Shown here piece by piece: positions 16,801 to 62,266 of a DNA stretch of 64,000 bases. The stretch is from Amphibalanus amphitrite (Eukaryota > Arthropoda > Thecostraca > Balanomorpha > Balanidae): contig NW_024881790.1 in assembly GCF_019059575.1 (NCBI RefSeq), positions 310,001 through 374,000 of the forward strand. The letters run 5' to 3'. Both the position numbers and the translations under genes were made by a program. Numbering within the stretch: the first letter of the stretch is position 1; each line of letters begins with the position of its first letter. Under the pieces are notes generated by a model that was not told the origin of the DNA, did no database searches, and worked only from the letters and a program-made list of their open reading frames with translations.

Positions 16801-17571
16801 TGTTCATTGTTATTGCAGTGTTACGTTTATGTGGCATGGCCATTGGCCATACACAAATGAAATTTTGTTGATCATGTTGCATTTTTTTTTTTTTTACCAG
16901 AGGCATTTGAAGCTGATGAGCCATTACTGTGGATTGAAATGATTCGTTAGCTGCATATATTTATTTGTTTAATAAAATGTACTTGTATTAAAACCAAATT
17001 GTGTTGTATTGTGCAGTGTGACTAATTAGCAATTCTATGGTGTTTCATGCACGTGTTACCAATGCATTATCTGCGAATATTTGTAGAGACAGGCCGCAAG
17101 TTCAATCAAACCAAATACAGTTATGGGTATATCGATTATGAATGCTCAGCTCATACATATTGATTATGTATACGATGAAGTTGGATAAAATCGTAAACGA
17201 AATTAAAATACCTTTGTCAAAATTGATCCACGCCCGTCTATATCAGATGGACGTTGTCATATTCAGTGCACTATGTCTAAATCCACTGAACAGTGTCGAA
17301 GTTGCGCACACTGCCTATTTTCAATGCCCCTTATCGTGAAGGCGCGTTGTGTCGATGAGAGGCGCACAATGTCGAAAGAGCACGCCTGTTGCCGGCTTAA
17401 ATGAAAGAAGGCTATATGACCTGCACAGATGCCGACTCGCAATGAAAAAAGGTGTAGTGCTGACCTAGGGCCAAAGTTAGGTCTCACGAAGCTGATTGAA
17501 TGAGGCATGCCATTCGTTTCGGCAGGGTTTTCCGAGTCCTTGATAGCTCTCCCGACCCGCTAGCTCAATAT

Positions 17572-18495
17572 CCCGCGAGTTGCTGGGGGGGGGGGGGGCG
17601 TTAAACGCCCCCACTTTTTTCGCCGGGCCATAGCATAAAAACGGCGCGTCGCAGGCGCGCCAAATTTTGGGTACCTGTAGGGAATTGATTGAAGTTTATT
17701 GTTACAACGTTTCAAAAAAATCGGTCGGAATTTTTTTGAGATATCGAGGTGTTAGTGACGTCATGATTTCTGAGTTTTCGACCAAAAACGGCATATGTTC
17801 AAAAAATCATATAAAATCACAGAATAGACATACAGACATGCCCTAAACGCCATTAGACTGCTAATACCAGGAACAATCAAATGACTATCTTCGATTATTG
17901 ATTATCGTTACGCATTTTGCAAAATCGTGAGCTGAATCTTGGCAATTTCTCGTGACTACTTTAGGACCATTATACATGCATTTCTTAAATTGAACTTTTT
18001 TTAGCCAAACACGTACACATATGATACAATGAATGTGACCATCGTGTTCTACGTCCCATATTACCCATTAAACATGTGTCACAGGCTGCGAATATCAATT
18101 TTGATTTTCGGGGATATTTGCCTGCCCGGTTGACCTGACCTTGACCCTGACCTATGCTTGACTGACCCCTACATGGAGGTGACACTCTTGTAGGCCTTAT
18201 ATGACGGATTGTGCACCGTTTTGACAGAGTTTATGACGAGAGGCGCCCATTGCGAAGTCCTAAAGTCCATGCTACTGAAAGCCCGATTTCAGGTGTTTGA
18301 CCTGACCTTGACCCGACCTGTGACCTAAAAATTCAACTTTGAAGTACTCATCTGAAGCGTCTCGTCGCGTTCTTTCGTTTGCCGCCTCGTGCGTTTCGCT
18401 GCGCCTATCGGTTCTCGAGTTATCGGCTGGGGGCGTTTAACGCCCCCCCCCCCCCAGCAAACGGTGGGTGGCGAAATACCCCAGCAACTGCCGGG
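17572..18495 (-). mobile_element. TTAA-family element (subfamily B, 924 bp) with ATAT duplication
   Basis: The left end is CCCGCGAGTTGCTGGGG (single). The right end, read inward, is CCCGGCAGTTGCTGGGG with TTGCTGGGG repeated at a 27 bp offset (double). Hairpins GGGGGCGTTAAACGCCCCC (about 17593) and GGGGGCGTTTAACGCCCCC (about 18432) follow the ends. Flanks are ATAT on both sides (17568-17571 and 18496-18499) instead of TTAA. The length agrees with the two sister copies (923 and 921 bp). The interior contains TGACCTGACCTTGACCC-type words. No coding region; presumably mobilised in trans by a piggyBac-like transposase. Confidence 0.85.
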
Positions 18496-18499
18496 ATAT

Positions 18500-19585
18500 G
18501 ATCGGGAGGTATTGACGAATAACTCTTATGGCACTAGTGACGTCATAAATGACGTCACGCAAGGTCAACAATGCAAGAGTGAAGCATCGAGCCTTGCAAG
18601 GAGTGCATGAAATCACGATTCTGTGTGCTTGAGATAGTTTAGGATCATTATCTGCGCCGGTGAGGTCACGTGACCGACCTGACCTCATGTGACCTTAATG
18701 AAAAATCTGAGATGTGAAAGCTGTAAGATCTCTAGGGGTTGCAAGTTTAGGTCTAGGTCCTGCAAGTTTCATCTTCCTTTGAAAATGCACTGAGGGCGTT
18801 GCGAACCTGAGAGATTTCAGGACCGTGAAGTGGTTCACTTATGACGTCATAGATCAGTGACCTAAACGAACCTAAATAAGCAGTTGGTTTTTCAAAATCT
18901 GGCTAGAGTCCAAGGTCAGGTATACCAAGTTTCAGCTCTCTATTGGCGGCGTGTTCGGAGTTACCAAAACTTTTTTTTTTGGGGGGGGGGCGCAACCCCT
19001 CCCCGTTATTGGCCGGAGAAAGTAAATTATTGTTTTTAGCTATGTGTTAGATGTCATAGCTACATAGCTTAGATGTCATAGCTACCTGAGAGATTTCAGG
19101 ACCGTGAAGTGGTTCCGATTTGATGTGAACAGTGAAGACGAGCCGGCCGTTATGCGCTTATCTAGCTGGCCGGCGGGTCTGACAGTCCGTCGGTGGACAA
19201 TGAAGCCCCGCCGCCTGCGCGACCCTATGGGTATACCTGACCTTGGTCGGGCCTCTGATTCGAACGCGCGACGACCCTATCCGATGGCACCGTCCGGCCA
19301 CCAGTCAGGAGCCGCTCCAGTACCGTCCTCTCGCTTGTGCCTCCAGGGAGAGAGCCCCAGGGAGACACCGGTTGGTCACGTGACTCGGAAACAAAAATCA
19401 GCTGATAGAGTGGCGGAATCCCCGTAATCAAACACAAATAATTCCGGACGATAGAGCGGCAGTATAGGAGTCTTCTTCACAACAGGCAAACATCGCCACG
19501 TTTTTCATTCAATGATCAAGAAACGTTCATAAATTATATATTTTTTCGACGATTACCGCCGCAACCGACGCGCACATATCGTTAC
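18500..19585. other. Intergenic interval with a 30 bp direct repeat
   Basis: CTGAGAGATTTCAGGACCGT and the following bases (GAAGTGGTTC) occur at about 18808 and 19087, bracketing ~276 bp that includes an 18970-18991 T-run/G-run and a short TAGATGTCATAGCTA duplication. The stretch has several AGGTCA/TGACCT words. No gene or element termini could be assigned apart from the weak tRNA-like trace below. Confidence 0.5.
19240..19330 (-). repeat. Possible tRNA-derived SINE head (degenerate)
   Basis: On the minus strand TGGCCGGACGG resembles a pol III A box. About 25 nt later GCGTTCGAATC resembles a B box (consensus GGTTCGAATCC). Spacing is roughly that of a tRNA-like head, but the acceptor stem and anticodon arm do not fold convincingly by eye. 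It is not a functional tRNA; it could be a SINE relic or chance. Confidence 0.25.
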
Positions 19586-19842
19586 CAGAGGGGTGTTCAC
19601 GGGCACCGCACACTGCTGCGTGCGCTGTGTGCGGTGCGTCCAGCAGGCGTGGGGGTAGGGGATGGGTAGGCGGCTCTGACGTCACGGCTGCGTGCGGTGG
19701 ACGGTCCGCTGTGGCCAGTCCCGACCGGCCACAGCGATCGCTGTGTGCGGTGACGGAAGGCTGACGTAGGGACGCAGTGGGCGGAGCTTCGAGGCTGTGT
19801 GCGGTCCGACCGCACACAGGGCCCGTGAACAGCCCTCAGCTG
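19586..19842. mobile_element. hAT-like MITE (~257 bp)
   Basis: Starts CAGAGGGGTGTTCACGGGC and ends GCCCGTGAACAGCCCTCAG, near-perfect inverted termini with a 3 bp offset. Inside, GTGTGCGGT/ACCGCACAC motifs recur close to both ends, as is usual for hAT subterminal repeats. I found no clean 8 bp TSD (ATCGTTAC against TGCTTTGC), so the boundaries are provisional. Confidence 0.45.
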
Positions 19843-24880: not shown

Positions 24881-24900
24881 TACCTAGTTCTCTATATACC

Positions 24901-25298: not shown

Positions 25299-26221
25299 CC
25301 CGGCAGTTGCTGGGGTATTTCGCCACCCACCGTTTGCTGGGGGGGGGGGGGCGTTAAACGCCCCCAGCCGATAACTCGAGAACCAATAGGCGCAGTGAAA
25401 CGCACGAGGCGGCAAACGAAAGAACGCGACGAGACGCTTCAGATGAGTACTTTAAAGTTGAATTTTGAGGTCGCAGGTGGGGTCAAGGTCAGGTCGAACA
25501 CCTGAAATCGGGCTTTCAGTAGCATGGACTTCAGGACTTCGCAATTGGCGCCTCTCGTCATAAACTCTGTCAAAACGGTGCACAATCCATCATATAAGGC
25601 CTACAAGAGTGTCAGCTCCATGTAGAGGTCAGAGAGTCAAGCATAGGTCAGGGTCAAGGTCAGGTCAACCGGGTAGGCAAATATCTCCGAAAATCAAAAC
25701 TGATATTCGCAGCCTGTGACACATGTTTTATGGGTAATTTGGGGCGTAGAACACGATGGTGACATTCATTTTATCATATGTGTACGTGTTTGGCTCAAAA
25801 AGTTAAATTTAAAAAATGCATGTATCATGGTGGTGAAGTAGTCACGAGAAATTGCCGAGATTCAGTTCAAGATTTTGGAAAATGCGGAACGATAATCAAT
25901 TCGAAGATAGCCAATTGATTGTTCATGGTATTGGCAGTCTAATGGCGTTAACGACATGTCTGTATGTCTATTCTGTGATTTTATATGATTTTTTGAACAT
26001 ATGCCGTTTTTGGTCGAAAACTCAGAAATCATGACGTCACTTAAATCTCGATATCTCAAAAATTTTCCGATCGATTTTTTTGAAACTTTGTCACAATAAA
26101 CTTCAATCAATTCTCTACAGGTACCCGAAATTTGGCGCGCCTGCGGCGCGCCGTTTTTATGCTATGGCCCGGCGAAAAAAGTGGGGGCGTTTAACGCCCC
26201 CCCCCCCCAGCAACTCGCGGG
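25299..26221 (+). mobile_element. TTAA-family element (subfamily B, 923 bp) with CTAA duplication
   Basis: The left end is double (CCCGGCAGTTGCTGGGG, with TTGCTGGGG repeated 27 bp on). The right end is single (inward CCCGCGAGTTGCTGGGG). CTAA flanks both sides (25295-25298 and 26222-26225). Hairpins with TTAA at the centre (GGGCGTTAAACGCCC and GGGCGTTTAACGCCC) lie inside each end. The interior carries two TCAAGGTCA sites and further AGGTCA words, and matches the copies at 17572 (inverted) and 46969. Non-coding. Confidence 0.9.
25483..25491 (+). promoter_or_regulatory. TCAAGGTCA word (FTZ-F1/ERR-type half-site), site 1
   Basis: Matches the extended monomer half-site known for NR5A (FTZ-F1/SF-1) and ERR nuclear receptors, followed immediately by another GGTC. 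A second exact copy is at 25654-25662 followed by GGTCA. Equivalent positions recur in the sister elements at 46969-47889 and 52646-53506. Whether any receptor binds is unknown. Confidence 0.35.
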
Positions 26222-26918: not shown

Positions 26919-27901
26919 CCCGCGCACCGACGGGGGGGGGGCGGATATCCGCCCCCCCTGAGGTTTTTCGCGGATAGCGGGTAAACTACGCGCCGCGAAA
27001 TTTGGTACGACTATTCTCTCATCAATTTTACACATGGTGTGCAAGTTTGAACCTCCTAACTTTTAAGGTCAGGTCACCAGGTCACTTTGAATGACCCAAC
27101 CTCAAGTCACTTTTTTGCAACTTTGTCACCGTGCCAGAGCTACAATAGATGTCGGAGGCCTTTGAAGTCGCAGGATGTTATTAAGTCATTACTGTAGCTA
27201 CAATTTGTTTATCTTGGAATTTTTATATCGGTGACCTAAGGTCAGGTCAATTTCGCGACCTCCCCATTATAAGTCAATGGGGAAAAATCAACTCCCTGTT
27301 TTTACCACTAAAACGGGTCGGAATGGCCCCATATACCATACATGACTTCATATATGATCAACCTTCACTACCTTGAGGTCTGTTTTGCTGTTGGGCAGCT
27401 GTAAGGTCATGTGACGTCATCAAAGGTCACCAAAGGTTTTTTTGCCAATAACTCCGTACAGGAACAAGATACAGCCGCGCGGATGGTCTCATTGTGTTCA
27501 GCTCGTCAAGACGCATCGATTGATATACATGATGACCTCGAGGTCACGTGACCTGAGGTCAACCTTTGACCTTGACCTTTCGAGGTCAAAATATATATCA
27601 TTCGATGCGGATTGACGAGAGGATCACGATGGTGCCCTTAGTTTGTTCCTATCTTGACTAATTCGAAAGTTATTCGAGAAAAACTCTCACCATATCTAGC
27701 GCCGCCATTTTGAATTTTTCGACCCCTGTGACGTCATTTTTGACCTGACGCAAAAATTGTAGACCTTGTCCGTGCGTATCCGATGCCGTTTACCGCTTGT
27801 CGTTATCTTGCTTCGTTCTCGAGATCTCAGGGGGGGGGGGGGGGCGGTCATCCACCCCCCCGTCGGTGCGAAGTTGGCGCAGACCCCCGTCGGTGCGCGG
27901 G
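26919..27901 (-). mobile_element. TTAA-family element (subfamily A, 983 bp)
   Basis: TTAA flanks it at 26915-26918 and 27902-27905. The left end is single (CCCGCGCACCGACGGGG). The right end is double, with ACCGACGGGGG repeated at a 27 bp offset. The left hairpin is GGGGCGGATATCCGCCCC; the right one is degenerate (GGGGCGGTCATCCACCCC). It is the same element as 60968-61960 in opposite orientation. The interior has AGGTCACGTGACCT at 27541 and many AGGTCA words. No coding potential. Confidence 0.9.
27541..27554. promoter_or_regulatory. AGGTCACGTGACCT palindrome
   Basis: Two AGGTCA half-sites inverted around CG, creating an overlapping CACGTG E-box. The same 14-mer is at 61321-61334 in the sister copy, and a one-base variant forms the exact centre of the 38.8-43.1 kb palindrome (AGGTCACGTGATCT at 42287-42300). 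A binding role is inferred only from the word. Confidence 0.3.
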
Positions 27902-27905
27902 TTAA

Positions 27906-29627
27906 CCCTAGAACGCCTAGGGGGGGGGGGGTTGTATCAACCCCCCCCTGAGGTTTTTTCGAAGTGCACGCTAAACGGCTTGTCGTAGCGGGCTGAAATT
28001 TTCAATACCCTCTGGGGCAACCTTTGCGCATCTTTTGCCGAAAAAAATTGATCGGGTCATTTCAGGTCACGGAGTTATGACGTCATAAGAGGTACAGCCT
28101 CCGGCCGACAGTTACCAAACGTGTGCGCCGAATCCCTAGGTTTTCTGCCGGTGATACCCACATTGTTTGATGGATCATGATGAAACTTCCCATGCATGTT
28201 GGGGCAAGCATTGGCTATCGTGTGGTGCAAGAAAATTGACCGGGTCAGGTCAGGTCACGGAGCTATGACGTCACAAGAGGAACAGCGTCCGGTACTATTT
28301 TTGAAAAGCGCCCGAACCACTATTTTGCTAATTCTTGTCACCTCAATGGGAATATGCAGCAATATTAGCTTCTATAGGGAGCAAATGGACCTCCCAAATC
28401 CAAAAAATACAATCAGATTTCAAAAATTTAAATTTTGATTTTTCGAATTTATGCCGCCGACTGTGACCTTCCGGCGCTCCCAACGCGCCATTTTTAGAGC
28501 TAGGGAAACGAAATACATACCAAACGATAGAGCGTACCGGGACGGCCCGGACCACTTCTGCGCCTGCCATCTATCGGGCAGTTCTTGGAACTACAGCGGG
28601 CGCCGGCCGGCCGGGCCGCGCGGCGCCGTTACGGGGCTATGGAGGCGAATGAAGTGGTGTAAAACCAGACGAATTTTACGCTTGTAAAGCAAAAAACTAA
28701 AAATGTACACTCACCACGGTGTTCAGGAAAGTACTGGGAACAATATGGATATAATTTAAAGCTAGTACGATGCGAACTGTTGGTTCCCTAGAGCAGTATT
28801 TAGGTACATACTTGTCGGAGATAGGACTTTAACATTACCGGGGCTTCCAAACTGCGCTCGCAAAGTACTTGATTGTAAATATTTGCATTTAGAGGCAAAA
28901 ATCTAAAAATGTACAGTCAGAGCGTTGTTCCCAATACTTCTAGGTACATAATGAGCATAAATTCAGCTTGAAGTGTCATCACACATTGGTTCCCAGTCCA
29001 GTTTAAAGCGACACTTTGTGCCGCAGAGCCTATCTCTTCCAGTGGATGGCGGCTGGCTGGCGGTTGTAGTGGTGGACAAGACAATTCTTGAGTGAAATGA
29101 AATCGTTTTCTTTCATAGAAGAATTTTGAAGAACTCGTAATAATTGACAAATGACCATTAATTACAGTGTATAATTTAAAGTTCATGGCAAATGACAAAC
29201 TTTTAAACAATGATTGTGAACCCCAGTACCGCTGCGCGAGTAAGCAAGTACTCGACGCACGGTCTGCCCGTCACTTCTGAAAATGGTCCGCGGCCGGCCG
29301 GCCGCGACCCGACACGGAATTGATCAAGGAACACGATAGTGAAGGTTTCAAGTCGATATCTCCCACCGTTTTGCCGCAATCGCCGCGGAAAGTTGAAAAA
29401 GTTCGATTTTTTTTCGGAAATTTTGACCTTTGACCGGTCATAAGTAGGTCAAATGTTGACCTAGGACCAAAAAATATACCACCAATCGCGAGATCTCGTT
29501 GAGAGCAATCCGGTGGTTTTTTCCGCTAAGCTCTACGACCTTCCGTTTCGAAACGCCAGGGGGGGTCGTAACAACCCCCCCCCCCCTGGTCGTTCGTGTT
29601 ATGAGAAATGGGCTGGTCGTGCGAGGG
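27906..29627 (-). mobile_element. TTAA-family element (subfamily F, 1722 bp)
   Basis: Flanked by TTAA at 27902-27905 (shared with the neighbouring subfamily A element) and 29628-29631. The left end is single: CCCTAGAACGCCTAGGGG. The right end is double, read inward CCCTCGCACGACCAG with ACGACCAG repeated at 27 bp. The left hairpin is GGGGTTGTATCAACCCC; the right is GGGGTCGTAACAACCCC. The two ends are more different from each other than in other subfamilies. The interior has diverged duplicated blocks (GGTCATTTCAGGTCACGGAG near 28050 and a variant near 28240) and no recognisable gene. Confidence 0.8.
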
Positions 29628-32342: not shown

Positions 32343-32880
32343 CAGGCCCATGTCACTCCACTTTTGATGACATCATATGGGGGCCTCAGGACAATAATGG
32401 CGCGGCGCGCCACAATCGCTTCAAAGCTACTTGTCAACAGCTGCCATTTTTGAAAATATTACTTTGAAATAAAGTTCCAAGTAATAAAAATATTGTAATA
32501 AAGTTGTTGTATAAATCGATACCATATCTAAAAACATACTAAAAAATGATTTATTCATAGTAAAAATATAAGCTCGATGCATTTTTACGTTGCTTTCCTT
32601 CAACTGCAGAGGGTTTTTAAATCGTCTATATCTTCAAAACCGGCCATTTCTTAGCATATTGCTGCTCTTTTTTATCGCTAGAAAATTAGTTTGACTTTCC
32701 TATGGCATCAATGGTTGAGCGATATGTGTAGAGTGTCACCAACAATCTTCAAATGAAGTTAGTCATTTTTACGTTGTGAGGGAATGGAGTACCCCTATCG
32801 AGCATCAGGGGTGACGTCACTCAGGATCTGTCTCTGATTGGTCGGCGGGAGAGTGACTGTACCTTCTATAGATGGCCTTG
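32343..32880 (+). mobile_element. hAT-like MITE copy B (compact, 538 bp), TSD TTGCACCC
   Basis: Begins CAGGCCCATGTCACTCC and ends TATAGATGGCCTTG. TTGCACCC is duplicated at 32335-32342 and 32881-32888. It is the uninterrupted version of the copy at 10347-16526 (opposite orientation) and shows where that copy was split. The retrotransposon frame continues across it (FCT... then ...QSFAMELPP). Non-coding. Confidence 0.85.
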
Positions 32881-32888
32881 TTGCACCC

Positions 32889-33480
32889 AGTCATTCGCAA
32901 TGGAGCTCCCTCCCGGTGTTGGCGCTGGCAGGCGACGTGGTGGGGTGGCGCTGATTTGCAAAAGGCAAAACGGACTAACTTTTCGTGAAATTTCATGTAA
33001 TGATGCCCGTCTATGCGGTACTGTAATAGGCTGCGGGAACACCCCTATTCTCGCTGTGTTCGGCTGTTATATGCCTTTCTGGGATGGTTCGTCCCAAGCT
33101 ATGGACGAATATGCTGACGTCATTGGTAAGCTGGATACCCTGATTGCAGCCCACCATAGCTCTGCTCCCATAGCCCTGATTGGGGATTTTAATTGTGCGC
33201 TGCCTAGAATGTCTGCGGCCTGTAGACCTGTGAACTGGGCCTGTTTAAAGGGGTTCTCGCCACTGAGCCGCCTTATGCAGGATCTGCTTATGACAATGAG
33301 TTAACAGTCGCTGAGTTCTGCTTTCCCAAAGACATTTCGTACACATACGAACGAGGCCATTCCTGCACTCATATTGATCACATAGCCATATCACAGTCCC
33401 TAAAGACTAATTTGCGCGGTTGCCGGATAATCCCTCCTTCGTTTGAGAACCTAAGCCCTCACCTACCCATAATCGCTAAT
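32889..33480 (+). pseudogene. Retrotransposon ORF2, endonuclease middle and C-terminal part
   Basis: Contains GRRRGGVALICKR, then PIALIGDFNCALP (the GDFN motif), and after a frameshift near 33295, YTYERGHSCTHIDHIAIS and NLSPHLPI, matching the S-D-H-x-P block with H retained and D replaced. These are the last conserved endonuclease motifs in the right order and spacing. The frameshift makes the copy non-functional. Confidence 0.8.
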
Positions 33481-34366
33481 ATTGCCCTTTGTCTTGACTG
33501 CGCTTCGGACGCAGCAAATCGTATGTCTGCTCCTATCTCTCGCCCTGATTGCTTAAGGTGGGACTCAACGGAATGCAATGATTTATTCAAATCTGTTTTG
33601 TTATCTCGTCTTTCAGTTGTCTCTGATGATTTGAACGTAGTCGACTGTCTCGACGAGTTTGCCAATTTTGTAACATCCAGTATTCATGCAGCGGCTAGAG
33701 ACTCTGGCTGTGCTAGGCCATCCCGTCCCCTAAGGCCTGGTGGGATCCATCAGTCTCGGCTGCGCGAGACCGCTGCCGATTCTGGCATCGCATCTGGGTT
33801 GAAGCGGAAAAGCCACACTATGGTGTCGCGCACAACTGCTACTGTGAGGCTCGAAGGGCTTACAGGCGTGCTCGTAAAGCTGCTGCGAGTGCCGGCATTG
33901 ACCAGGAGGCGAAGCTGCTGCACTGCCTGCGTCGAGGAAATATTTCGTCCTTTTGGAGGAACGTTGGCAGAGCACGTCGAGAGCGGCAGCCTGTTCAGTG
34001 TGCGCTTGATGCCGAATGCTTCCGGACTCATTTCTCTCGGATCCATGACGATGACGAAGAGCAGCTAAGCTACTCCCAGAAATTGATCAGTAGAGACGTA
34101 TTGGAACGGTTCACTCGAGGCTCTTCTGGCTGTGATCCAAAAATTGTGACTGAGAACCAGGTGGCCCAACTGATCCTCAGGCTAAAGCGCGGGTCTGCCC
34201 GGGACCAGATCTCATCACCGCAGAGCACTTGTTCTTTGGCCAATGCTCGGAGTTAAATAGGGCTCTAGCTAAGTTGCTGACCGCTTGCTTTGCCGGTGGG
34301 CGCGTGCCATTTAATTTCTCGACCAGTATTGTGGTGCCGATCTTGAAAAAAAAAACAGGCATGGAC
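33481..34366 (+). pseudogene. Retrotransposon ORF2, linker and start of RT
   Basis: The linker is recognisable in a shifted frame (EARRAYRRARKAAAS, then SSFWRNVGRARRE), followed by QLILRLKRGSA. A further shift gives the RT entry motif GPDLITAEHLFF and then TSIVVPILKKKTGMD. Coding then breaks at the hAT insertion (TSD GCATGGAC). At least two frameshifts lie in this segment. Confidence 0.75.
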
Positions 34367-35784
34367 CAGTGGCGGATCCAGGATTTTCACTGGGGAGGGG
34401 CTGCAGGTCATAATTGGGCGCCACGCCCCGGATGGGCGCCATAGTCGCATCGTGGATCTTTTTTTGTTAGTTGCGTAGGGTTGCGTCAGTTGGAGTCGGC
34501 AGTTTTGATCGGAGTCTGAGTTGGAGTCGGTTCATTGGCATCCCTCGACTCCGATACCGGCTCGGAGTCAGAGTCTGTTAAAATTATCTCTACCTACCTC
34601 CCTTTTTATTTAAAGGTAAACAACCAACGTTTGGATACAAAACAAGTTTCACCGAAGTTTCCAGGCCTATCTCTCGACTCTCGTCGATGACGATTTTAGG
34701 AACCACTCTTTCCCATGATCCATCGGTGGATGGTATCCAGAGAAACGTGGACGAGCGGCGACTGAAAACGTATTGGGTAGTTTGTGACAGAGATCCCAAC
34801 CGCAGCAGATATTTTTTTACATGCCCTGTGACACGAAATCCAGCCATGAATAAGCACGAGTTCAGAAGAGTATGTTATTATGTACCAAGTGGGAGGTAAA
34901 TGTTAGACGGAATCCCTAGGTGTATTGCAAAATAATTGCATAACATAATGAATATTATATTTTGCCGCATTTCGGTCGCAGTTTTCAGAGATTTTTTTGC
35001 ATGACCGGATGTAACTTTTATTGAGCCTGCTATTCTAAGTACACATCCCAACTCCACGTATCGGCGGCCTCAGCGACAGCATCCCAACCGCCGGTCATAA
35101 TACTGCAGCTGGATTTCAGTGGTCAGTGCATGTCACGTCACGGGCCGAAGCCCTGCGGCTGCACCAGGCTGATACCTAGCTGTCCGTCCACTTCACACTT
35201 CAAAGGACAAAGTTCTTCTTGCGCTGTGTCTTGCTGAACACTTCTAGCACGGCGTCACTCGTGACTGCGGGGCACTGCCGGTACACCTGCAGCATACAGA
35301 TCGCCTCCAGCCTGTCCTCCGTCATAGTTGCCCTGATGGAGCTGGCCGCCAGAGACACGCGGCTGAAGAAGCGTTCTGGTTCAGCTGTGGTCACTGGCAG
35401 CGCAGCCATGATCTCGAGCAGCTTGCAGATGTTCGGCATCAGCTCATGAGAGCAGGCGTCCAGCGCCTCCACGGCAGATCTTGGTCGATCCAGGGCGGGC
35501 TTGTTGGTCCACATTGTGCGCCACAGCTCGTGTTCAGCCTTGACTACCTGTGGCGGGTCGAGAAAGTCGCTGTAGCGCAGCAGAGCGGACTCTACTTCCT
35601 CCCACGGCTTCATGTATCCTATCCTATCCTATGATTCGGTCCTAGTATCCTAGTCCTAGTATGCGGCACTCCGATGAGTTGCGAATTGAAAATTGGCGCC
35701 ACTGCGCCTTCGGCGCAGTGGCGCCAGTTTTCCTTGGGTGGGGGCTGCCAGCCCCCGCAGCCCCCCCCCCTGGATCCGCCACTG
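34367..35784 (-). mobile_element. hAT element, 1418 bp, TSD GCATGGAC
   Basis: The terminus CAGTGGCGGATCCAGG (34367) is inverted at 35769-35784. GCATGGAC is duplicated at 34359-34366 and 35785-35792. It contains the C-terminal part of a hAT transposase on the minus strand, so it looks like an internally deleted derivative of an autonomous element. Its 5' end is at 35784. 35695-35725 is a perfect GGCGCCACTGCGCC stem with a TTC loop. GGAGTCGG-type words recur near 34490-34580. The RT frame reads straight across the empty site. Confidence 0.92.
35200..35613 (-). pseudogene. hAT transposase C-terminal dimerisation domain
   Basis: 137 codons. Near the end, LPVTTAEPERFFSRVSLAAS and SIRATMTEDRLEAICMLQVY show the classical hAT dimerisation signature (LP...S/T..ERxFS, then R..M..eRL..l..l). 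The upstream part (MKPWEEVESALLRYSDF...) is the preceding helical region. The BED finger and most of the catalytic domain are absent, so it is a remnant. It lies inside the TIR-bounded element, which supports the hAT call. Confidence 0.85.
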
Positions 35785-36132
35785 GCATGGACCCCAATCT
35801 TTTAGATAATTATAGACCTATTGCGCTGACTTCTATTTTGTCCAAGCTACTAGAACTTGTAATTCTGGCTGAGTTAGAGACGGCTTTTATCCCGCATGAG
35901 TTGCAGTTTGGCTTCGTCCAACATCGGGGCACAAGCGAGGCGTCTGTGCTGATAAACGAGACTGTTCAGTGGCATCTAAGAAGGGGGTCTCCTGTCTTCG
36001 TTGCCAACCTTGACGCAAGGAAGTTCTTTGATAGAATCTGGCACGATGGACTTTTCTGGCGTCTCGCTGACCTCTTGAGTATTGAAGCATGGTGCCTGTT
36101 GTACTCATGGTACAAGGATTTGCGCGGCCAAG
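35785..36132 (+). pseudogene. Retrotransposon RT, motifs 1 to A
   Basis: Resumes at the second GCATGGAC copy and reads MDPNLLDNYRPIALTSILSK, then QFGFVQHRGTSEAS and FVANLDARKFFDRIWHDGLF. The aspartate in NLDARKFFD is catalytic motif A. It breaks at CGGCCAAG (36125-36132), where a 605 bp MITE enters. Confidence 0.9.
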
Positions 36133-41872: not shown

Positions 41873-43103
41873 TTAAAGCCTTATTAAGTGTCATTCATAT
41901 GCGATAATGAAAAAAGTGGTTATCGCCCTGCGTTGACCTCAGGTCAGGTCATTTTTATGACCTGTCCATTATTACGAGCGGGAGCGACAGCGAGATCTCG
42001 AGAATAAAGCAAGATAGCGACAAGCGGTAAACGGTAAAGGGTACACACGGATAAGGTCTATAATTTTTACTGAGGTCATTTTCAGGTCAGGTCAAAGATG
42101 ACGTCACAGGAGCTAAAAGGAAGTCAAAATAGCGGCACTATACATATATATGAAGTTTTTCTCAAATAACTTTCAAGGTATCCCAGCTAGGAACAAACTA
42201 ATAGCACCATCGTGATCCTCTCGTCGATCCGCATCGAAACGTATGTATTTTGACCTCGAAAGGTCGAAAGATCAAAAGTTGACCTTAGGTCACGTGATCT
42301 AAGGTCAACTTTTGACCTTTCGACCTTTCGAGGTCAACATACATATGTTTCGATGCGAATCGACGAGAGGATCACGATGGTGCTATTAGTTTGTTCCTAG
42401 CTGGGATACCTTGAAAGTTATTCGAGAAAAACTTCATATATATGTATAGTGCCGCTATTTTGACTTCCTTTTAGCTCCTGTGACGTCATCTTTGACCTGT
42501 CCTGAAAATGACCTCAGTAAAAATTATAGACCTTATCCGTGTGTGCCCTTTACCGTTTACCGCTTGTCGCTATCTTGCTTTATTCTCGAGATCTCGCTGT
42601 CGCTCCCGCTCGTAATAATGGACAGGTCATAAAAATGACCTGACCTGAGGTCAACGCAGGGCGATAACCACTTTTTTCATTATCGCATATGAATGACACT
42701 TAATAAGGCTTTTATCGTCATCAGACAAAATTGCAACTTTCAGTGGGGAAAATATCGAGATCACTCTTCGAAAAATAGGACAAAAGGTCACGTGACCAAA
42801 ATTTTCAAAAATTGAAAATCCGAGATAGCCAAAATGTTTGTTGGTTGATTGTGAGTTGAACCATATAAAGTTTTTATCGTAAAAAAACAATAGTTTCTGA
42901 GTTATAGGCCGCCAAACATAGGGCTGCAGCGCGAAATCCAGGGATTGCCCGAGGCTATATCTCGGAAACCGTTGTTCGAAGAAAAAAATCCTTGCCACAG
43001 CTGGCTTCCCCGCCCATCACAACCCATTAGACCAATTTTAAGCAAAAAATAAAATATGAGGGTGCAGGGCACTTGTCGATTTGTCGTGGAACGCCCCAGT
43101 TGT

Positions 43104-44009
43104 AGAGGGGCAGTGCTCCACGGGTGTCATGTGCCTGCCGTATGTTATGCAGATGATTTATGCCTCATTTCCTGTAATGTTCACTCTCTTGGACATCTTC
43201 TTTCCCTTGTCGATGGCTTTGCATCGAAATGGAGACTAGAGTTTACATGTTCTGATCCCGACAAAACCAAGAGCCACTGTATTATCTTCGGAAATAATTT
43301 GTTGGTGAACACACCATCATGGTTTCTCGGTGACCAGAAGCTAAGAGTGGTCCACGAGACGGAGCATCTTGGCACTACCATGTCGTCTGGCCTGCAGGCG
43401 AGGCAACATGTCAACCAGCGGATTAAACGTGCCCGTGGTTCCTTCTATGGTCTAACTCCTGCTGGTATATTCAACAAACGGTTGGCACCTTCAGATAAAG
43501 CATTTTTATGGAACACTGTAGTAGCCCCCTCTCTAAGATTCGGGATCTCATTTTCCCCACTCGGAACCACTGACATATGTGACCTTGAACGCTTTCAATC
43601 ACGTCATATAAAGGCTGCCCTTGGGCTTCCGCCACAGGCTCACCATACGGACCTTCTCGCTGCGCTGGGTGTGCCGAGTATTCAGGAGACGTTACGAGGC
43701 GTGGCATTGCGTGCCCTCTCAAATGCTATGAAGGATGAGCATAGGCTGTCCAGAGCTATGGTGCGGGGCATGGCTGTACTAGCTACAGATTCTGGCCAGT
43801 TAGATGGGTCATTTTTACACTTTGTCTACATGATATGCAACTTGGACATCGGAACTGTGCTCAGGATAGCCTCGGGGCATATTGACACTGACATAGTCCG
43901 CCCGCAGATGGAACCCAATGGGGTGGTTGACTCACTGCGCTTTTTAGCTGCGCACACAGACAGAATGTCGCGTCATTTGTTACGCTTGATTGTCATGCCA
44001 CCTAGATGA
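43104..44009 (+). pseudogene. Retrotransposon RT, motif C to C-terminus
   Basis: Reads VLHGCHVPAVCYADDLCLIS (YADD catalytic motif C), then DGFASKWRLEFT and KTKSHCIIFGNN, then HETEHLGTTMSSG, followed by about 220 residues of thumb and C-terminal domain. An intact stop is at 44007-44009. It is the longest uninterrupted coding stretch in the window and appears free of frameshifts, although the protein is disconnected from its N-terminal parts. Confidence 0.9.
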
Positions 44010-46968: not shown

Positions 46969-47889
46969 CCCGGCAGTTGCTGGGGTATTTCGCCACCCAC
47001 CGTTTGCTGGGGGGGGGGGGGCGTTAAACGCCCCCAGCCGATAACTCGAGAACCAATAGGCGCAGCGAAACGCACGAGGCGGCAAACGAAAGAGCGCGAC
47101 GAGACGCTTCAGATGAGTACTTTAAAGTTGAATTTTGAGGTCACAGGTCGGGTCAAGGTCAGGTCAAACACCCGAAATCGGGCTTTCAGTAGCATGGACT
47201 TCAGGACTTCGCAATGGGCGCCTCTCGCCATAAACTCTGTCAAAACGGTGCACAATCCATCTTATAAGGCCTACAAGAGTGTCAGCTCAATGTAGGGGTC
47301 AGTCAAGCATAGGTCAGGGTCAAGGTCAGGTCAACCGGGTAGGCACATATCCCCGAAAATCAAAACTGATATTCGCAGCCTGTGACACATGTTTTATAGG
47401 TAATTTGGGGCGTAGAACACGATGGTGACATTCATTTTATCATATGTGTACGTGTTTGGCTCAAAAAGATCAATTTAATAAATTTATGTATCATGGTCGT
47501 GAAGTAGTCACGAAAAATTGCCAAGATTCAGTTCAAGATTATGGAAAATGCGGAACGATAATCAATAATCGAAGATAGCCATTTGATTGATCATGGTATT
47601 GGCAGTCTACTGGCGTTTACGGCATGTCTGTATGTTTATTCTGTGATTTTATATGATTTTTTGAACATATGCCGTTTTTGGTCGAAAACTCAGAAATCAT
47701 GACGTCACTAAAACCTCGATATCTCAAAAATTTTCCGACCGATTTTTTTTGAAACTTTGTCACAATAAACTTCAATCAATTCCCTACAGGTACCCAAAAT
47801 TTGGCGCGCCTGCGGCGCGCCGTTTATATGCTATGGCCCGGCGAATAAAATGGGGGCGTTTAACGCCCCCCCCCCCAGCAACACGCGGG
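46969..47889 (+). mobile_element. TTAA-family element (subfamily B, 921 bp)
   Basis: TTAA flanks it at 46965-46968 and 47890-47893. Left double end CCCGGCAGTTGCTGGGG with a 27 bp offset repeat; right single end (inward CCCGCGTGTTGCTGGGG). Hairpins GGGCGTTAAACGCCC and GGGCGTTTAACGCCC. Nearly colinear with 25299-26221, and it retains two TCAAGGTCA words. Non-coding. Confidence 0.9.
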
Positions 47890-49710: not shown

Positions 49711-50864
49711 CCCGCGCGGGGCTGGGGGGGGGGGTAGATTTTACCCCCCCCCTCGCGAATTTTTGCAATATCTCAAAAACGGCGGTACGTTTTCTTACAT
49801 CAATTTGACACGTTCCCTGAAAATTTGAGCGAAATCCGTCGGAATTTTTTTGAGAAATTGACGTTTTAGTGACGGCATGTTCGCCATTTTCGCCTCAAAA
49901 ACGGCAAAATTTCAAACGCCGCTAACATCTTCATTTTTTAAAGGAATCAAGACGTAACAAAAAAGGTTATACGTAATTCTACTTTGTCTATCAAATGGCT
50001 CTCTCGGTTTTTGAAAATTTTGGATTTTGGCCCAAATTTTTTCAAAAAACTGACTTTTTTGGGAAAATAATTATAAAATCCAAAATTTTGAATGTATAAA
50101 AAAACGGAATATGTGTCAGAGAAGTGGCCTATGTGCACCTACATACCAATTTTTAGTAGAATCGGTTCAAAAATGTGGGAGTTATTCAAGATTTTATGAC
50201 GTCACGACACAAATTTTTGAAAAATGATTGTTTTGGAAGTTCTAGACCTTGTACGGAAACAAAAATAGTACCATTCGATTCGCCGTGAAAAACTGCATCA
50301 GATAGACACCTTTTTAGGCCTTAACAACCAACTTCAAAAATCGACCTCACTTGACCTGACCTTGACCTGACCTCGACCTGAAATTCATCCAGAGGTGGTC
50401 CATATCACTTATTGAGTGTGCCTATTGAATTCTATGAGTAAAATGACCCATAAAACATGTGTCGCACATGCCCTTTTCTATATTTTGTTTTTTGGTGACC
50501 TGACGTGACCCGACCTGACCTTGACCTTGACCTCTGAATGATATTGTTTGCAACGAATATTGTCTTGGTAGCCTAAGACCACGTTTTGGGCAATCAGTCT
50601 CTGTCGATGACTCCATTCTTCGGCAACTACGGTGCAAGGCCGATACTGTAGAAACTTGCAATTTGTACCCTTGACCTGACCTTGACCTTGACCTCAAACT
50701 TTTAAATTAAATACATGTTTTTAGTTGTTCGTGATGAGATCTTTCGATTGGCGTTTGAATTTTCCAAATCGGACCATTAGTTCGGGAGATAACAGGGGGG
50801 GGGGGTAGAATTTAGCCCCCCCCCAGCCCCGCGCGTTCGGCTGGAGACCCCAGCCCCGCGCGGG
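49711..50864 (-). mobile_element. TTAA-family element (subfamily C, 1154 bp)
   Basis: TTAA flanks it at 49707-49710 and 50865-50868. Left single end CCCGCGCGGGGCTGGGG. Right double end, with GCGCGGGGCTGGGG repeated at 27 bp. Left hairpin GGGGGTAGATTTTACCCCC; the right one is partly degenerate (GGGTAGAATTTAGCCC). The interior has long runs of TGACCTGACCTTGACC words. It is homologous inside to 51508-52641 (inverted), although the ends differ. Non-coding. Confidence 0.88.
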
Positions 50865-51507: not shown

Positions 51508-52641
51508 CCCGCGCCCCGCTGGGCTATTCAGCCATACGCGCCCTGCTGGGGGGGGGGGGGGGGCAGATTCTGCCCCCTGTCTAACTTCCGAACCGATGGT
51601 CGTAGAAAGACCCCAAATTTTTTTGCTTAAGTAGGTCAGAGGTCAGGTCAAGGTCAGGTCAAGGGTACAAGGTGCAAGTTTCTACAGTATCGGCCGTGCA
51701 CCGTAGTTGCCGAAGAATGGACTGAGACTGATTGCCCAAAACGTGTTCTTAGACTACCAAGACAATATTCGTTGCATACAATGTCATTCAAAGGTCAAGG
51801 TCAAGGTCAGGTCAGGTCATGTCAGGTCACCGAAAAACAAAATATAGAAAAGGGCATGTGCGACACATGTTTTATGGGTCATTTTACTCATAGAATTCAA
51901 TAGGCACGCTCAATAAGTGATATGGACCACCTCTGGATGAATTTCAGGTCGAGGTCAGGTCAAGGTCAGGTCAAGTGAGGTCAAATTTTGAAGTTGGTTG
52001 TTAAGGCCTAAAAAGGTGTCTTTCTGATGCAGTTTTTCACGGCAAATCGAATGGTGCTATTTTTGTTTCCGTACGAGGTCTAGAACTTCCAAAAAAATCA
52101 TTTTTCAAATTTTTTGTGTGTCGTGACGTCATAAAATTTTGAATAACTTCCACATTTTTGAACCGATTCTTCTAAAAATTGGTATGTAGGTGCACATAGA
52201 CCACTTCTTTGACATATATTCCGTTTTTTTTTTCGATACACTCAAAATTTTGGATTTTATAAATACTTTCCCAAAAAAGTCAGTTTTTTGAAAAAAAATT
52301 GGGCCAAAATCCAAAATTTTCAAACAACCGAGATAGCCATTTGATAGACAAAGTAGAATCACGTATAACCTTTTTTGTTACGTCTTGATTCCTTTAAAAA
52401 TGAAGACGTTAGCGGCGTTTGAAATTTTGCCATTTTTTAGGCGAAAATGGCGAACATGACGTCACTAAAACGTCATTTTCTCAAAAATTTTCCGACGGAT
52501 TTCCCTCAAATTTTCAGGGAACGTGTCAAATTGATGTATGATAAGGTACTGAAAGTTTGACGTCGCTGGCGTAACGCGTTTAGAAGTTATTGGCGAAAAA
52601 CGGGAGGGGGGGCAGATTCTGCCCCCCCAGCGGGGCGCGGG
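51508..52641 (+). mobile_element. TTAA-family element (subfamily D, 1134 bp)
   Basis: TTAA flanks it at 51504-51507 and 52642-52645. Left double end: CCCGCGCCCCGCTGGG with GCTGGGG repeated at 27 bp. Right single end, inward CCCGCGCCCCGCTGGGG. Hairpins GGGGCAGATTCTGCCCC at both ends. The interior resembles subfamily C. Its right TTAA is shared with the truncated subfamily B element that follows. Non-coding. Confidence 0.9.
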
Positions 52642-52645
52642 TTAA

Positions 52646-53506
52646 ACGCCCCCAGCCGATAACTCGATAACCAATAGGCGCAGCGAAACGCACGAGGCGG
52701 CAAACGAAAGAACGCGACGAGACGCTTCAGATGAGTACTTTAAAGTTGTATTTTGAGGTCACAGGTCGGGTCAAGGTCAGGTCAAACACCTGAAATCGGG
52801 CTTTCAGTAGCATGGACTTCAGGACTTCGCAATGGGCGCCTCTCGTCATAAACTCCGTCAAAAAGGTGCACAATCCATCATATAAGGTCGACAAGAGTGT
52901 CATCTCCATGTAGGGGTCAGTCAAGCATAGGTCAGGGTCAAGGTCAGGTCAACCGGATAGGCACATATCCCCGAAAATCAAAACTGATATTCGCAGCCTG
53001 TGACACATGTTTTATGGGTAATTTGGGGCGTAGAACACGATGGTGACATTCATTTTGTCATATGTGTACGTTTTTGGCTCAAAAAGTTCAATTTAAGGAA
53101 TGCATGTATCATGGTCGTGAAGTAGTCACGAGAAGTTGCCAAGGTTCAGTTCAATATTTTGGAAAATGCGAAACGATGACCAATAATCGAAGATAGCCAT
53201 TTGATTGTTCAAGGTATTAGCAGTCAAATGGCGTTTACGGCATGTCTGTATGTCTATTTGGTGATTTTATATGATTTTTTGAACATATGCCGTTTTTGGT
53301 CGAAAACTCAGAAATCATGACGTCACTAAAACCTCGATATATTATAAAATTTTCGACCGATTTTTTGAAACTTTGTCACAATAAACTGCAATCAATTCCC
53401 TACAGGTACCCAAAATTTGGCGCGGCTGCAGCGCGCCGTTTTTATGCTATGGCCCGGCGAAAGAGTGGGGGCGTTTAACGCCCCCCCCCCCCCAGCAACT
53501 CGCGGG
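52646..53506 (+). mobile_element. TTAA-family element (subfamily B), left end missing
   Basis: Starts exactly at the TTAA that sits in the middle of the left hairpin in sister copies (compare 25350-25353). It continues ACGCCCCCAGCCGATAACTC and the full B interior to a normal single right end and TTAA (53507-53510). The left ~50 bp of a B element is absent even beyond the neighbouring D element. So D and B form a composite bounded by TTAA, a D double end and a B single end. Confidence 0.85.
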
Positions 53507-53510
53507 TTAA

Positions 53511-55861: not shown

Positions 55862-58023
55862 CCCGCGCCCCGCTGGGGGTCCTAGATTTTCACGCCCTGT
55901 TGGGGGGGGGGGGGTGAACAGCCCCCCTTCTAACTCGGCTCCTGTGTCACATAGCGATACGATGCGGCATGCAGCGTTCGAAATAGCGCCAAAAATAATA
56001 ACGAAAACACTTCGGTCACTTTTTTGGTCAGGTCAAAGGTCAGATCACCAGAGGTCATTAAGGGCAAAATTTCGCCGACTTCCAGGTCGAATGTGGATAA
56101 TTTTCCAGAAGCCAACGCATAACTCGGGAACCAATAGAGCTACAGACCCGCAGAAAAGTGCGTTCGATAGCCCTATTAGCACCCTTTCTGAAAAAAAGTT
56201 CTCATATTTGACCTAGCGTCAACAGTTTTGCCTGCAGGGGGCAAAAACTGCCAAAATAGCCGATTTTTCATGACAGTTTTTCTGCAATAACTTTTGACGC
56301 AAGCCTTGCACGAGATTCCTTTTACCGGCATCGTGTTCCCCTTGTCAAGACGCATCGAATGAACGTTAGTTCGACCGTCAACTTGAAAGTTTGACCTCAG
56401 CTCAAGGTCATGACCTGACCAGAAAGGGCCATGTATGATGCATATCAATCTATCCATATCGTCGAGCTGAACTCATCCAAGGCGTTTTCATTGCTCTAGC
56501 TGTCTCTATCAAAAGTTATTTGCGAAAACTCTTAGATACCATTCGTGACCTGAGATGATCTCCGGGGCCCGCATAAACAGGGGTCACGGGTACCATTTTC
56601 ATGTTCAGTGTGTCAAATTTGCTTGTATTACAGTGTTTGAGAGTATTTATAACGGCTTTCGTCCAAAAGAGGCGCCTTTCAATTTTATCCCATTAACTTA
56701 TACCTAAACGGGGAGATCGCAAAATTGACCTGACCTTTAGGTCACCGATATCAAAATTCCGAGACAAACATTTCGTACATACTGTTGCTCTAATCAATCT
56801 TTGAAAGTTTCAAAGCAATCGGTCATTCGGTGTAGCTATGGCAGATATTGAAACTTCTTATGAGGTAAGGTCACTTGAAGTGACCTAGTGACCTGACCTT
56901 GACTGACCTTGGTCGGAAATTTTCACAACATGTGTAGCATTGATGTACGATAAGGTGTGCCAGAAACGGCGGTGCTCCGAGCGCCGTTTTCTATAGATAT
57001 ACCTATTTGTTTTTGCCACTTAAACCAGTTAAACCTATATTTGAAAGATATGGCCCAAATTATCCATAAAACACGTGTCACATGATGCATCATCTTGACC
57101 GGATGACACAAAAAGACGACAACATAAAGCAAGCAGGACACATCAATCACGATGTTGCAATGTTTCGTTTCGTTTCGTGTATTGTTGAGACCATCCACAC
57201 CGTGGCTATTCGAGTCTCCCGTCATACATGTTGTAAAAGTAAAGTGACGCTAAAATATCGACAAGTTGTACATACACATAATGCCACATTACACACGATA
57301 AAACATATACTGCGATAAAAACATGATAAGAAAAGTGGGATGAGCTAAGCGTGAGCACATGACTAGGTGATGTATTCCCTTACTGCCAGTTTGAAAGCAC
57401 GGTAGGTCGGCGCGTCGCGGGCGGCGCGCGGCAGACCATTCCAGGCGACCGCCGCACGGTAAGTAAAGGCCTTCTGGCTCGAGGCCAGCCTGCAGCGCTG
57501 CAGGTGCAGGTCGCCGCCCTCCGATCCGCGGGTGTCCCGGGACGACACAGCGCTGCGGGGCACCAGGAGCTCCCGCACGCTGGAGGGCGCGCCGTCCGCC
57601 CGCAGCAACCCCCACACCTTTGCGACGTCCCGGCGCGCCACCAGGGTCTCGATCCTCGGCCAATCAAGATAATTTAGAGTCGGTGTAATGTGTTCGTGTT
57701 TCTTTATCCCTCCCACAATCCTGGCCGAAAAATTGATAACTTTTTGAAGCTTGTGCATCTGCCCCCTGGCCGCCCCACCCAAGACGCACAGACAGTAAGT
57801 GATATGTCCGCGGTATGTGCGGCCCGTCCGGCCAGGCCGGGACGGCGCCATTGGCTATGACCGTCCCGGCCCCGGGGAGATCTGTTGGTTATCTCCCCGT
57901 CCGGGGAGAGCTGTGGGATACCTCCCCGGACCCCGGAGCCCCGGACGGGCCACCGCCCCCGTTTTTTTATAGATGTTCGCGAAAAAACACAGGGGGATGT
58001 TCAACCCCCCAACAGGGCGTGGG
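55862..58023 (+). mobile_element. TTAA-family element (subfamily E, 2162 bp) carrying an RT fragment
   Basis: Left double end: outer CCCGCGCCCCGCTGGGGG, inner CGCCCTGTTGGGG at a 27 bp offset. Right single end, inward CCCACGCCCTGTTGGGG, then TTAA (58024-58027). The left flank is TTGA (55858-55861), probably a mutated TTAA. Left hairpin GGGGTGAACAGCCCC; right GGGGGATGTTCAACCCCCC (imperfect). The outer left motif matches subfamily D while the inner and right ones match each other. It contains a minus-strand retrotransposon fragment. Confidence 0.8.
57363..57851 (-). pseudogene. Non-LTR retrotransposon ORF2 C-terminal fragment
   Basis: 163 codons open: HKLQKVINFSARIVGGIKKH then ITPTLNYLDW, VRELLVPRSAV and AAVAWNGLPRAARDAPTYRA. 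This is the characteristic tail of Jockey/CR1-group ORF2 (LQ...N.AARI, L.WL, WN.LP...R.A.S...FK..L). The catalytic RT region is absent. It lies wholly inside the subfamily E TTAA element, so it was either captured or inserted there. GC-rich relative to the flanks. Confidence 0.8.
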
Positions 58024-58441: not shown

Positions 58442-58449
58442 GTCCGGAT

Positions 58450-60752: not shown

Positions 60753-60967
60753 TTAATATATTTTATAATGTTGAGCCCGGTGAGGAAGAAAGAACAGCCA
60801 AAATGAGAAAAAGAAACTGCAAATCTTCTGTACCAGTCGCTTTTTTGTGGCCACCACTGAACTATATAATAGTGGCCACTATCTGTATCGGAATTTTGTT
60901 TATTCGCTGCGCCGCGCCACTTTCGTAGTTAGGCACTTCTGCTTAGCTGGCTTTCTGCTGTTTTTAA

Positions 60968-61960
60968 CCCGCGCACCGACGGGGGTCTGCGCCAACTTAG
61001 TACCGACGGGGGGGCGGATGACCGCCCCCCCTGAGATCTCGAGAACGAAGCAAGATAGCGACAAGCGGTAACGGCATCGGATACGCACGGCCAAGATCTA
61101 CAATTTTTACAAAGGTCATTTTCAGGTCAGGTCAAAGATGACGTCACAGGGGTCGAAAAAGTCAAAATGGCGGCGCTAGATATAGAGAGAGTTTTTCTCG
61201 AATAACTTTCGAATTAGTCAAGATAGGAACAAACTAAGGGCATCATCGTGATCCTCTCGTCAATCCGCATCGAATGATATATATGTTGACCTCGAAAGGT
61301 CAAGGTCAAAGGTTGACCTCAGGTCACGTGACCTCGAGGTCATCATGTATATCATTCGATGCGCCTTGACGAGCTGAACACAATGAGACCATCCACGCGT
61401 CTGTATCTTGTTCCTGTACGGAGTTATTGGCCAAAAACCTTTGGTGACCTTTGATGACGTCACATGACCTCACAGCTGCCCAACAGCAAAACAGACCTCA
61501 AGGTAGTGAAGGTTGATCGTATATGAAGCCATGTATGGTATATGGGGCCATTCCGACCCGTTTTAGTGGTAAAAACAGGGAGTTGATTTTTCCCCCATTG
61601 ACTTATAATGGGGAGGTCGCGAAATTGACCTGACCTTAGGTCACCGATATCAAAATTCCGAGATATACAAATTGTAGCTACTAATGACCTAATAATATCC
61701 TGCGACTTTCAAAGGCCTCCGACATCTACTGTAGCTCTGGCACGGTGACAAAGTTGCAAAAAAGTGACTTGAGGTTGGGTCATTCAAAGTGACCTGGTGA
61801 CCTGACCTTAAAAGTTAGGAGGTTCAAACTTGCACACCATGTGTAAAATTGATGAGGTTATAGTCATACCAAATTTCGCGGCGCTACGCGCCGCGGTTTT
61901 CCCGCTATTCGCGAAAAACCTCAGGGGGGGCGGATATCCGCCCCCCCGTCGGTGCGCGGG
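60968..61960 (+). mobile_element. TTAA-family element (subfamily A, 993 bp)
   Basis: TTAA flanks at 60964-60967 and 61961-61964. Left double end with ACCGACGGGGG repeated at 27 bp; right single end (inward CCCGCGCACCGACGGGG). Hairpins GGGGCGGATGACCGCCCC (4 nt loop) and GGGGCGGATATCCGCCCC. The centre carries AGGTCACGTGACCT at 61321. Homologous along its length to 26919-27901. Non-coding. Confidence 0.92.
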
Positions 61961-62266
61961 TTAATATATTGTTTTAATAAAGGATGGTCATCAATATCAA
62001 TTTTGTTTTTTCATATATAATTTTTAAGATTTAAATTCAACATAATTGTTTTATAAATTCTCGTAAAAAAAATAAGTGTTGACATGAAATTGTAATTTGT
62101 AGGACGCTTGATAAATTACGGTAACTACGCAAATGTGCTTAGTTACGGAGGTGTAAACAATTCCAGCTGTGGCTTTGTGAAACGGATTTATTTGCGCTCC
62201 GTAGTTTGAAAGGGTGTGAATTACGGAAAGGTGTAAGTTACGGCAGAGTTTTATGAAACGAGGCCC

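Follow-up and report, generated by a model that had tools for sequence, protein, structure and literature searches.

Elements and End Types in the Window

The stretch of Amphibalanus amphitrite DNA analyzed here (contig NW_024881790.1, positions 310,001 to 374,000; 64,000 bp, G+C 46.4%), hereafter the window, contains reverse transcriptase and hAT fragments, numerous interspersed repeats and open reading frames (ORFs), the longest ATG-started of which spans no more than 317 amino acids. The subject of this work is a set of piggyBac-like elements scattered over the window, nine of them complete (0.9-2.2 kb), in which an end motif stands once at one terminus (the single end) and twice at the other (the double end), the two copies being offset by 27 bp. 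Six end types were distinguished among the complete elements (A in three copies, B in two, and C, D, E and F in one each), while a seventh, G, is known solely from an end at position 831.

Type A (AGTTGCT) is represented by E1A (17572-18495, plus strand; single end at 17572, double end at 18495; flanks ATAT/ATAT), E2A (25299-26221, minus strand; double end at 25299, single end at 26221; flanks CTAA/CTAA) and E5A (46969-47889, minus strand; double end at 46969, single end at 47889; flanks TTAA/TTAA), as well as by a truncated copy, E8A (52642-53506, minus strand), which retains its single end at 53506 and has lost the double one at a TTAA within its own palindrome. To type B (CACCGACG) belong E3B (26919-27901, plus strand; single end at 26919, double end at 27901) and E10B (60968-61960, minus strand; double end at 60968, single end at 61960; flanks TTAA/TTAA). 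The TTAA at 27902-27905 is common to E3B and the adjacent E4C of type C (27906-29627, plus strand; tips CCCTAGAACGCC / CCCTCGCACGACC; single end at 27906, double end at 29627; flanks TTAA/TTAA). E6D of type D (CGGGGCT; 49711-50864, plus strand; single end at 49711, double end at 50864; flanks TTAA/TTAA) has its body in common with E7E of type E (CCCCGCT; 51508-52641, minus strand; double end at 51508, single end at 52641; TTAA on either side). E9F of type F occupies positions 55862-58023 on the minus strand, with its double end at 55862 flanked by TTGA and its single end at 58023 flanked by TTAA. The partial element E11G (1-831, plus strand) has its double end at 831 (bp 1 being position 831, read leftward) next to TTAA at 832-835, its partner end lying beyond the window.

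In total, 20 termini (10 double and 10 single), picked by eye and then set to base level, were examined: both ends of the nine complete elements, the end at 831 and the extra single end at 53506. A preliminary description of this DNA had listed these nine elements; as four of the six end types are single-copy, while A and B are repeated, the independent sample amounts to six.

One Single End, One Double End and an Offset of 27 bp

Each terminus was compared with itself by scoring ungapped self-matches at shifts of 10-50 within its first 60 bp, with 2000 shuffles per terminus. The shift of 27 ranked first in all ten double ends (scores 8.5-15 against 4-6 for the runner-up; shuffle p 0-0.0155), including the end of E11G (score 9), and in none of the ten single ends. 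Nine of the latter gave shuffle p of at least 0.146; the remaining one, that of E9F at 58023, gave p 0.038, but its best shift was 24, and in the single ends of E3B and E4C the shift of 27 took third place with a score of 3.5. Thus, each of the nine complete elements has exactly one double and one single end, and symmetric elements with two single or two double ends were not found within the window. All palindromes of a G-run and a C-run located at CCC tips belong to the elements listed above, the few remaining ones (e.g., 5906, 35740, 38446) having no such tips in the printed context.

A second measure, independent of the motif, gave the same value: the start of the G-run of the inner palindrome differs by 27 between the two ends in 9/9 complete elements, single ends having it at bp 14 and double ends at bp 41 (in E4C, bp 15 and bp 42); in E11G the G-run starts at bp 41, as read off the sequence. 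An unanchored scan of 1863 CCC sites on both strands, from which low-complexity sites were skipped, yielded 112 matches at shift 27, and no other shift exceeded 9; the former number is inflated by overlapping sites within C-runs, which were counted repeatedly. Among the 70 TTAA-like CCC sites the threshold was reached by 10 at shift 27, by one at 17 and by one at 34; these 10 comprise nine true double ends and one C-run on the opposite strand of E4C, the CTAA site of E2A having fallen outside the TTAA-like pattern. The doubled-end layout with an exact 27-bp offset is therefore real, and the preliminary description was accurate in its account of nine elements with one single and one double end, in their nine starts (exact to the base), in the double nature of the end at 831 and in the offset of exactly 27 bp in every double end.

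The Same Architecture in piggyBac of Trichoplusia ni

When the published ends of T. ni piggyBac (IFP2) were put through the same self-shift test (letters from PMC7846023), the right-end (RE) fragment RE63 showed the shift of 27 over bp 7-18 with 12/12 matches, while the left-end (LE) fragment LE35 gave no score above 3. In agreement with this, RE bp 34-63 are nearly identical to LE bp 7-35 (PMC7351741). The arrangement of T. ni piggyBac, in which one end is single and the other repeats the sequence from bp 7 onward at +27, recurs in 9/9 complete elements and 10/10 double ends of the window. The palindromes are similarly placed: measured from the tip, their centres lie at 25.0 bp in LE35 and at 53.0 bp in RE63, compared with 25.5 and 52.5 bp in the single and double ends of E10B and 25.0 bp in the single end of E7E. 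A palindrome just inside the motif, centred near bp 25 in T. ni piggyBac, where it serves as the site of the cysteine-rich domain (CRD), is found in the window elements as well, and here it may be regarded as a putative CRD site; its centre is 25.0-32.0 bp from the tip in 9/10 single ends, only E7E and E10B falling at 25-25.5, whereas the other single ends have deeper palindromes and longer G-runs.

T. ni piggyBac thus resembles the window elements in its single and double end, the shift of 27, the palindromes at about 25 and 53 bp, the TTAA target and the CCC tips. It differs in being autonomous, with a transposase of 594 amino acids, while no transposase was found in the 0.9-2.2 kb elements; in its motif, AAAGATAATCAT as opposed to the G/C-rich motifs of the window; and in its palindrome of the TGCGTAAAATTGACGCA type, in place of a G-run, a core and a C-run. 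The suggestion of the preliminary description that these elements follow "their own rule" consequently does not stand, since T. ni piggyBac has the identical layout and offset; nor does the contrast that it drew with "differently spaced internal repeats" of piggyBac, the arrangement being the same, with an extra 27-28 bp in the right end.

Joint Change of Letters under a Constant Spacing

At bp 7-14 the motif copies of one element are much alike (average identity 0.86 between the single and the inner copy, 0.92 between the single and the outer one, and 0.85 between the outer and the inner one), as opposed to averages of 0.41-0.43 between end types. With one representative per end type (n = 6), the true pairing of single and inner motifs ranked first among 720 permutations; that between single and outer motifs was tied by one other permutation, because E7E and E9F carry identical outer letters at bp 7-14. 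For the palindrome cores, the summed score of the true pairing was 32 against a permutation mean of 0.67, again the best of 720. Hence the motif and the palindrome core have changed jointly, if not perfectly, within elements across the end types, while the offset has stayed constant. The claim that the motifs "differ completely" was too strong, given the remaining identity between the types and the GCTGGG common to types A, D and E; the more general statement that spacing is conserved while sequence is not holds as to the former, 27 being fixed across seven end types, and has to be softened as to the latter, the letters being partly alike.

The constancy of the offset could be merely inherited: seven end types descending from one ancestor would preserve it without any transposase geometry, provided that insertions and deletions (indels) are rare in so short a stretch. 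Traces of common descent do persist in 5/7 spacers (GCCAACTT in types B and G, GCC in types A, D and E). The rate of indels was estimated from four non-overlapping pairs among the eight pairs of bodies aligned, giving indel to substitution ratios of 16/147 (all indels) and 7/147 (those outside homopolymers). A spanning tree of the seven end types contains 63 substitutions over bp 7-33, for which 6.9 or 3.0 indels, respectively, would be expected, whereas none was observed (P 0.001 and 0.05). If the tree is halved, the probability of no indels over the same positions rises to 0.03 and 0.22; the second of these, obtained on the most conservative premises (a halved minimum spanning tree and homopolymer indels disregarded), becomes 0.14 when bp 7-40 are considered. 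The test, which is blind to compensating indels, favours a constrained offset, although the window alone does not amount to proof. A stronger argument for constraint is the identical 27 of T. ni piggyBac, maintained despite other motif and spacer letters, and we therefore consider mere inheritance unlikely. In this respect the "fixed transposase geometry" proposed in the preliminary description is supported.

Still less probable is that the doubled end is a functionless duplication, produced by chance or slippage and carried along by hitchhiking. G-runs and simple repeats are indeed frequent in these ends, but the doubling occurs in all seven end types, is one-sided in 9/9 complete elements and has a single offset; its copies change jointly within elements; and alteration of the corresponding repeat of piggyBac cuts transposition by about half (PMC7351741).

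Target Sites, Tips and Affiliation of the Elements

Duplication of a TTAA target site, characteristic of the piggyBac superfamily, is seen as TTAA/TTAA flanks in 6/9 complete elements and as identical TA-centred variants in two more (ATAT/ATAT and CTAA/CTAA), the ninth having TTGA/TTAA; the designation "TTAA-family" thus suits the majority of the elements, with ATAT, CTAA and TTGA/TTAA flanks departing from it in one element each. For E7E the TTAA pair may not be a true duplication, since its right TTAA sits in the palindrome of E8A and its left flank is unrelated. TA-centred variants have precedents: Pokey uses TTAT, ATAA and CTAA targets at low rates, and the alternate piggyBac sites in two cited assays retain the central TA (PMC3849761), CTAA being named as a piggyBac target elsewhere too (PMC3983033). 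ATAT is absent as a piggyBac or Pokey target variant from the accessible text of both these papers. All 20 ends begin with CCC, giving CC...GG termini throughout, whereas the CCCGCG attributed to them earlier is not present in all. Membership in Kolobok, another TTAA-duplicating superfamily, was set aside as extremely improbable: TTAA on both sides of six elements would suit it, but its tips are 5'-RR...YY-3' (PMC9587614) in place of the CC...GG seen here in 20/20 ends, and the end geometry fits piggyBac.

By their target site, CC...GG tips and end geometry, on which the filing rests, the elements very probably are non-autonomous elements of the piggyBac type, moved by a transposase coded elsewhere; the preliminary description, too, had taken them for non-autonomous relatives of piggyBac. 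Several facts weigh against this reading or against a strict form of it. The strict CC[C/T]T tip, the general one of piggyBac and termed its hallmark (PMC2872659), occurs in only 2/20 ends, both of E4C, the others being CCCG or CCCA; we treat this tip as usual for piggyBac and not as a criterion of exclusion. The motif copies are imperfectly matched in some elements (identity of 0.75 between outer and inner copies in E9F and of 0.625 between single and outer copies in E4C), and the palindromes of the two ends of piggyBac itself differ by 28, not 27. The palindrome centre is not fixed relative to the motif, lying as far as 32.0 bp from the tip in single (E1A) and 61.0 bp in double ends (E7E); the deeper position in elements with longer G-runs is as slippage of the G-runs would give. 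The single-end palindrome of E9F is weak, with equally low scores at 44.5 and 23.5, and in E11G a regular-expression search found no palindrome and the centre test none that was convincing. Hyperactive piggyBac transposase, hyPBase, tolerates symmetric ends (PMC7351741), which means that asymmetry is not strictly required by piggyBac chemistry. Finally, no piggyBac transposase domain (DDE_Tnp_1_7, PF13843) was detected among 40 of the 259 window ORFs scanned against Pfam (chosen from the 60 longest stop-to-stop ORFs of at least 70 amino acids), but non-autonomous elements need not encode a transposase. Pfam curated cut-offs were passed only by RVT_1 (35646-36350) and the hAT dimerisation domain (35203-35628).

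G-run length, recorded for 19/20 ends (all except E11G), ranges between 6 and 16; in the four single ends of type A it ranges between 11 and 14. Such variation would be expected from slippage.

Comparison with Other TTAA Elements

piggyBat of Myotis lucifugus likewise combines motif and palindrome units, a TTAA target and asymmetric synapsis (PMC11707139, PMC13405395). It differs in that its left end carries the motif GCGGGA at bp 11, 55 and 99, i.e., in steps of 44, and its right end is without a corresponding palindrome (PMC11707139); no such 44-bp step is seen in the window elements, 27 topping all shifts from 10 to 50 in 10/10 double ends. The CMITEs of Acropora are TTAA-flanked non-autonomous elements with bodies conserved across families that have different terminal repeats; unlike the window elements, they are about 100 bp long and have CC[C/T]T tips, and one-sided doubling of the ends is not mentioned in the accessible part of the report (PMC2872659). 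The mPok elements of Daphnia Pokey, miniature inverted-repeat transposable elements (MITEs) of about 750 bp from the piggyBac superfamily, resemble the window elements in their TTAA and minority TA-centred targets, including CTAA; they differ in having ends in common with known autonomous elements, and a 27-bp rule is not stated for them in the text available (PMC3849761). Human MER75B is reported to have subterminal inverted repeats at only one of its ends (PMC12324416), and four structural groups of ends are attributed to Bouallegue et al. (2017) in PMC8086355. In the parts of the literature searched we met no claim that an offset of 27 bp is invariant between families, and the accessible portions of PMC10954464 and PMC4273485 print no end letters of further piggyBac-like elements on which 27 could be tested. 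A search for the end-structure pattern TTAACCCGCG...G7...C6 gave no matches in viral and prokaryotic contig collections, which has little bearing on eukaryotes.

Possible Exchange of Ends between Elements

The bodies of E6D and E7E, which are neighbours in opposite orientation, are 92.9% identical over 921 aligned columns, and their identity drops sharply at both ends (64 and 30% in 50-column windows on the left; 46, 32, 64 and 70% on the right). In the controls, the type A pair E2A/E5A retained 92-100% in the end windows, and the type B pair was 94-100% identical at the tips, with dips to 74% (second window) and 78-82% (three windows close to the right end); between E1A and E8A identity falls on the right because E8A is truncated. 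The left ends of E6D and E7E score 23, third of 15 end-type pairs (others 12-35), and the right ends 32, second of 21 pairs (others 12-36), both values lying in the upper part of the range spanned by other end-type pairs. The simplest reading is that one event of conversion or recombination joined a D-type body to E-type ends, although fast divergence of the ends alone may also give this pattern. A shared body with strongly diverged ends suggests that the ends may be exchangeable modules; such mosaicism would not be new, as the bodies and terminal repeats of the coral CMITEs (PMC2872659) indicate. The right junction of E6D and E7E lies within TGACCT repeats.

A different kind of junction was noted next to them: E8A, which adjoins E7E, breaks off precisely at the central TTAA of the palindrome of its own double end; the other flank of E7E is unrelated. 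The double end of E7E together with the single end of E8A would form a TTAA-flanked composite obeying the rule of one single and one double end.

Other Features of the Window

AGGTCA, which we take to be a nuclear-receptor half-site, has a density of 9.5/kb inside the 11 elements and 1.46/kb outside them (e.g., 25468-25497, 47138-47167, 51945-51974), and AGGTCAAGGTCA occurs 11 times inside elements and not once outside. An 838-bp near-perfect palindrome at 41875-42712 (arms of 419 nt, 98% complementary, no spacer) contains part of the type B body, without its ends, as a pair of inverted copies of about 317 bp (79-83% identical). Large nested inverted repeats occupy 12780-16092, their arms being 12780-13198/15674-16092 (99%), 13193-13627/15244-15678 (98%) and 13615-14133/14736-15254 (94%). 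Remains of retrotransposons lacking long terminal repeats, endonuclease-like and reverse-transcriptase-like, lie at 32780-36350 and 43053-44006, with only 35646-36350 passing the Pfam cut-off, and the hAT dimerisation fragment (35203-35628) is on the minus strand. tRNA and Rfam searches of the window returned nothing.

Proposed Mechanism and Its Implications

In human cells, native piggyBac transposase both excises and integrates only the LE35/RE63 pair, LE/LE being inactive and RE/RE being excised without integration; activity falls by roughly half when 5 bp are inserted into the RE or its second motif is randomised, and roughly doubles when a further unit is added to the LE. In the model proposed by the authors, the tips are bound by a catalytic dimer and the right end additionally by an inner one (PMC7351741). 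For piggyBat, an asymmetric tetramer with a non-catalytic inner dimer was described, and the 12/23 rule of RAG was mentioned (PMC13405395).

We apply the dimer model to the window elements by inference. Their single end (tip motif, then palindrome) would correspond to the left end of piggyBac, and their double end (tip motif, spacer, motif repeated 27 bp inward, then palindrome) to its right end. A catalytic transposase dimer would sit on both tips, with its C-terminal zinc domains paired on the single-end palindrome, and a second, non-catalytic dimer would occupy the double end at its inner motif and palindrome (model of PMC7351741); the phasing of the two dimers would be given by the step of 27 bp, which amounts to some 2.6 helical turns. 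The sequences themselves establish the layout, the offset, the joint change of motifs and cores and the agreement with piggyBac; the transposase, its dimers, the mobility of the elements and the joining of end cassettes to different bodies are what we infer for this locus.

The layout itself is the known end architecture of piggyBac, met here in a diverse non-autonomous set. The new part is comparative: motif and core have changed together across seven end types, with the offset fixed. Of most interest for further work are this constancy and the probable swapping of end cassettes. As a tentative and rather doubtful generalization, single and double ends with a 27-bp phase could be a general recognition rule for much of the piggyBac superfamily, in the way that the 12/23 rule is for RAG. 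Motif and palindrome would then form a two-part, fast-changing address; with this cassette swapped at the two ends, the bodies of non-autonomous elements could pass between transposases.

The unequal ends of piggyBac have been termed enigmatic and explained by a second, phased transposase dimer, with mutants losing about half of their activity (PMC7351741). The exact step of 27 in seven end types with differing letters provides comparative support for this phased-dimer model. Once autonomous partners are found, the matched sets of motif, core and body could reveal the specificity code of piggyBac-type transposases, and the E6D/E7E mosaic suggests how non-autonomous elements might survive the loss of their transposase.

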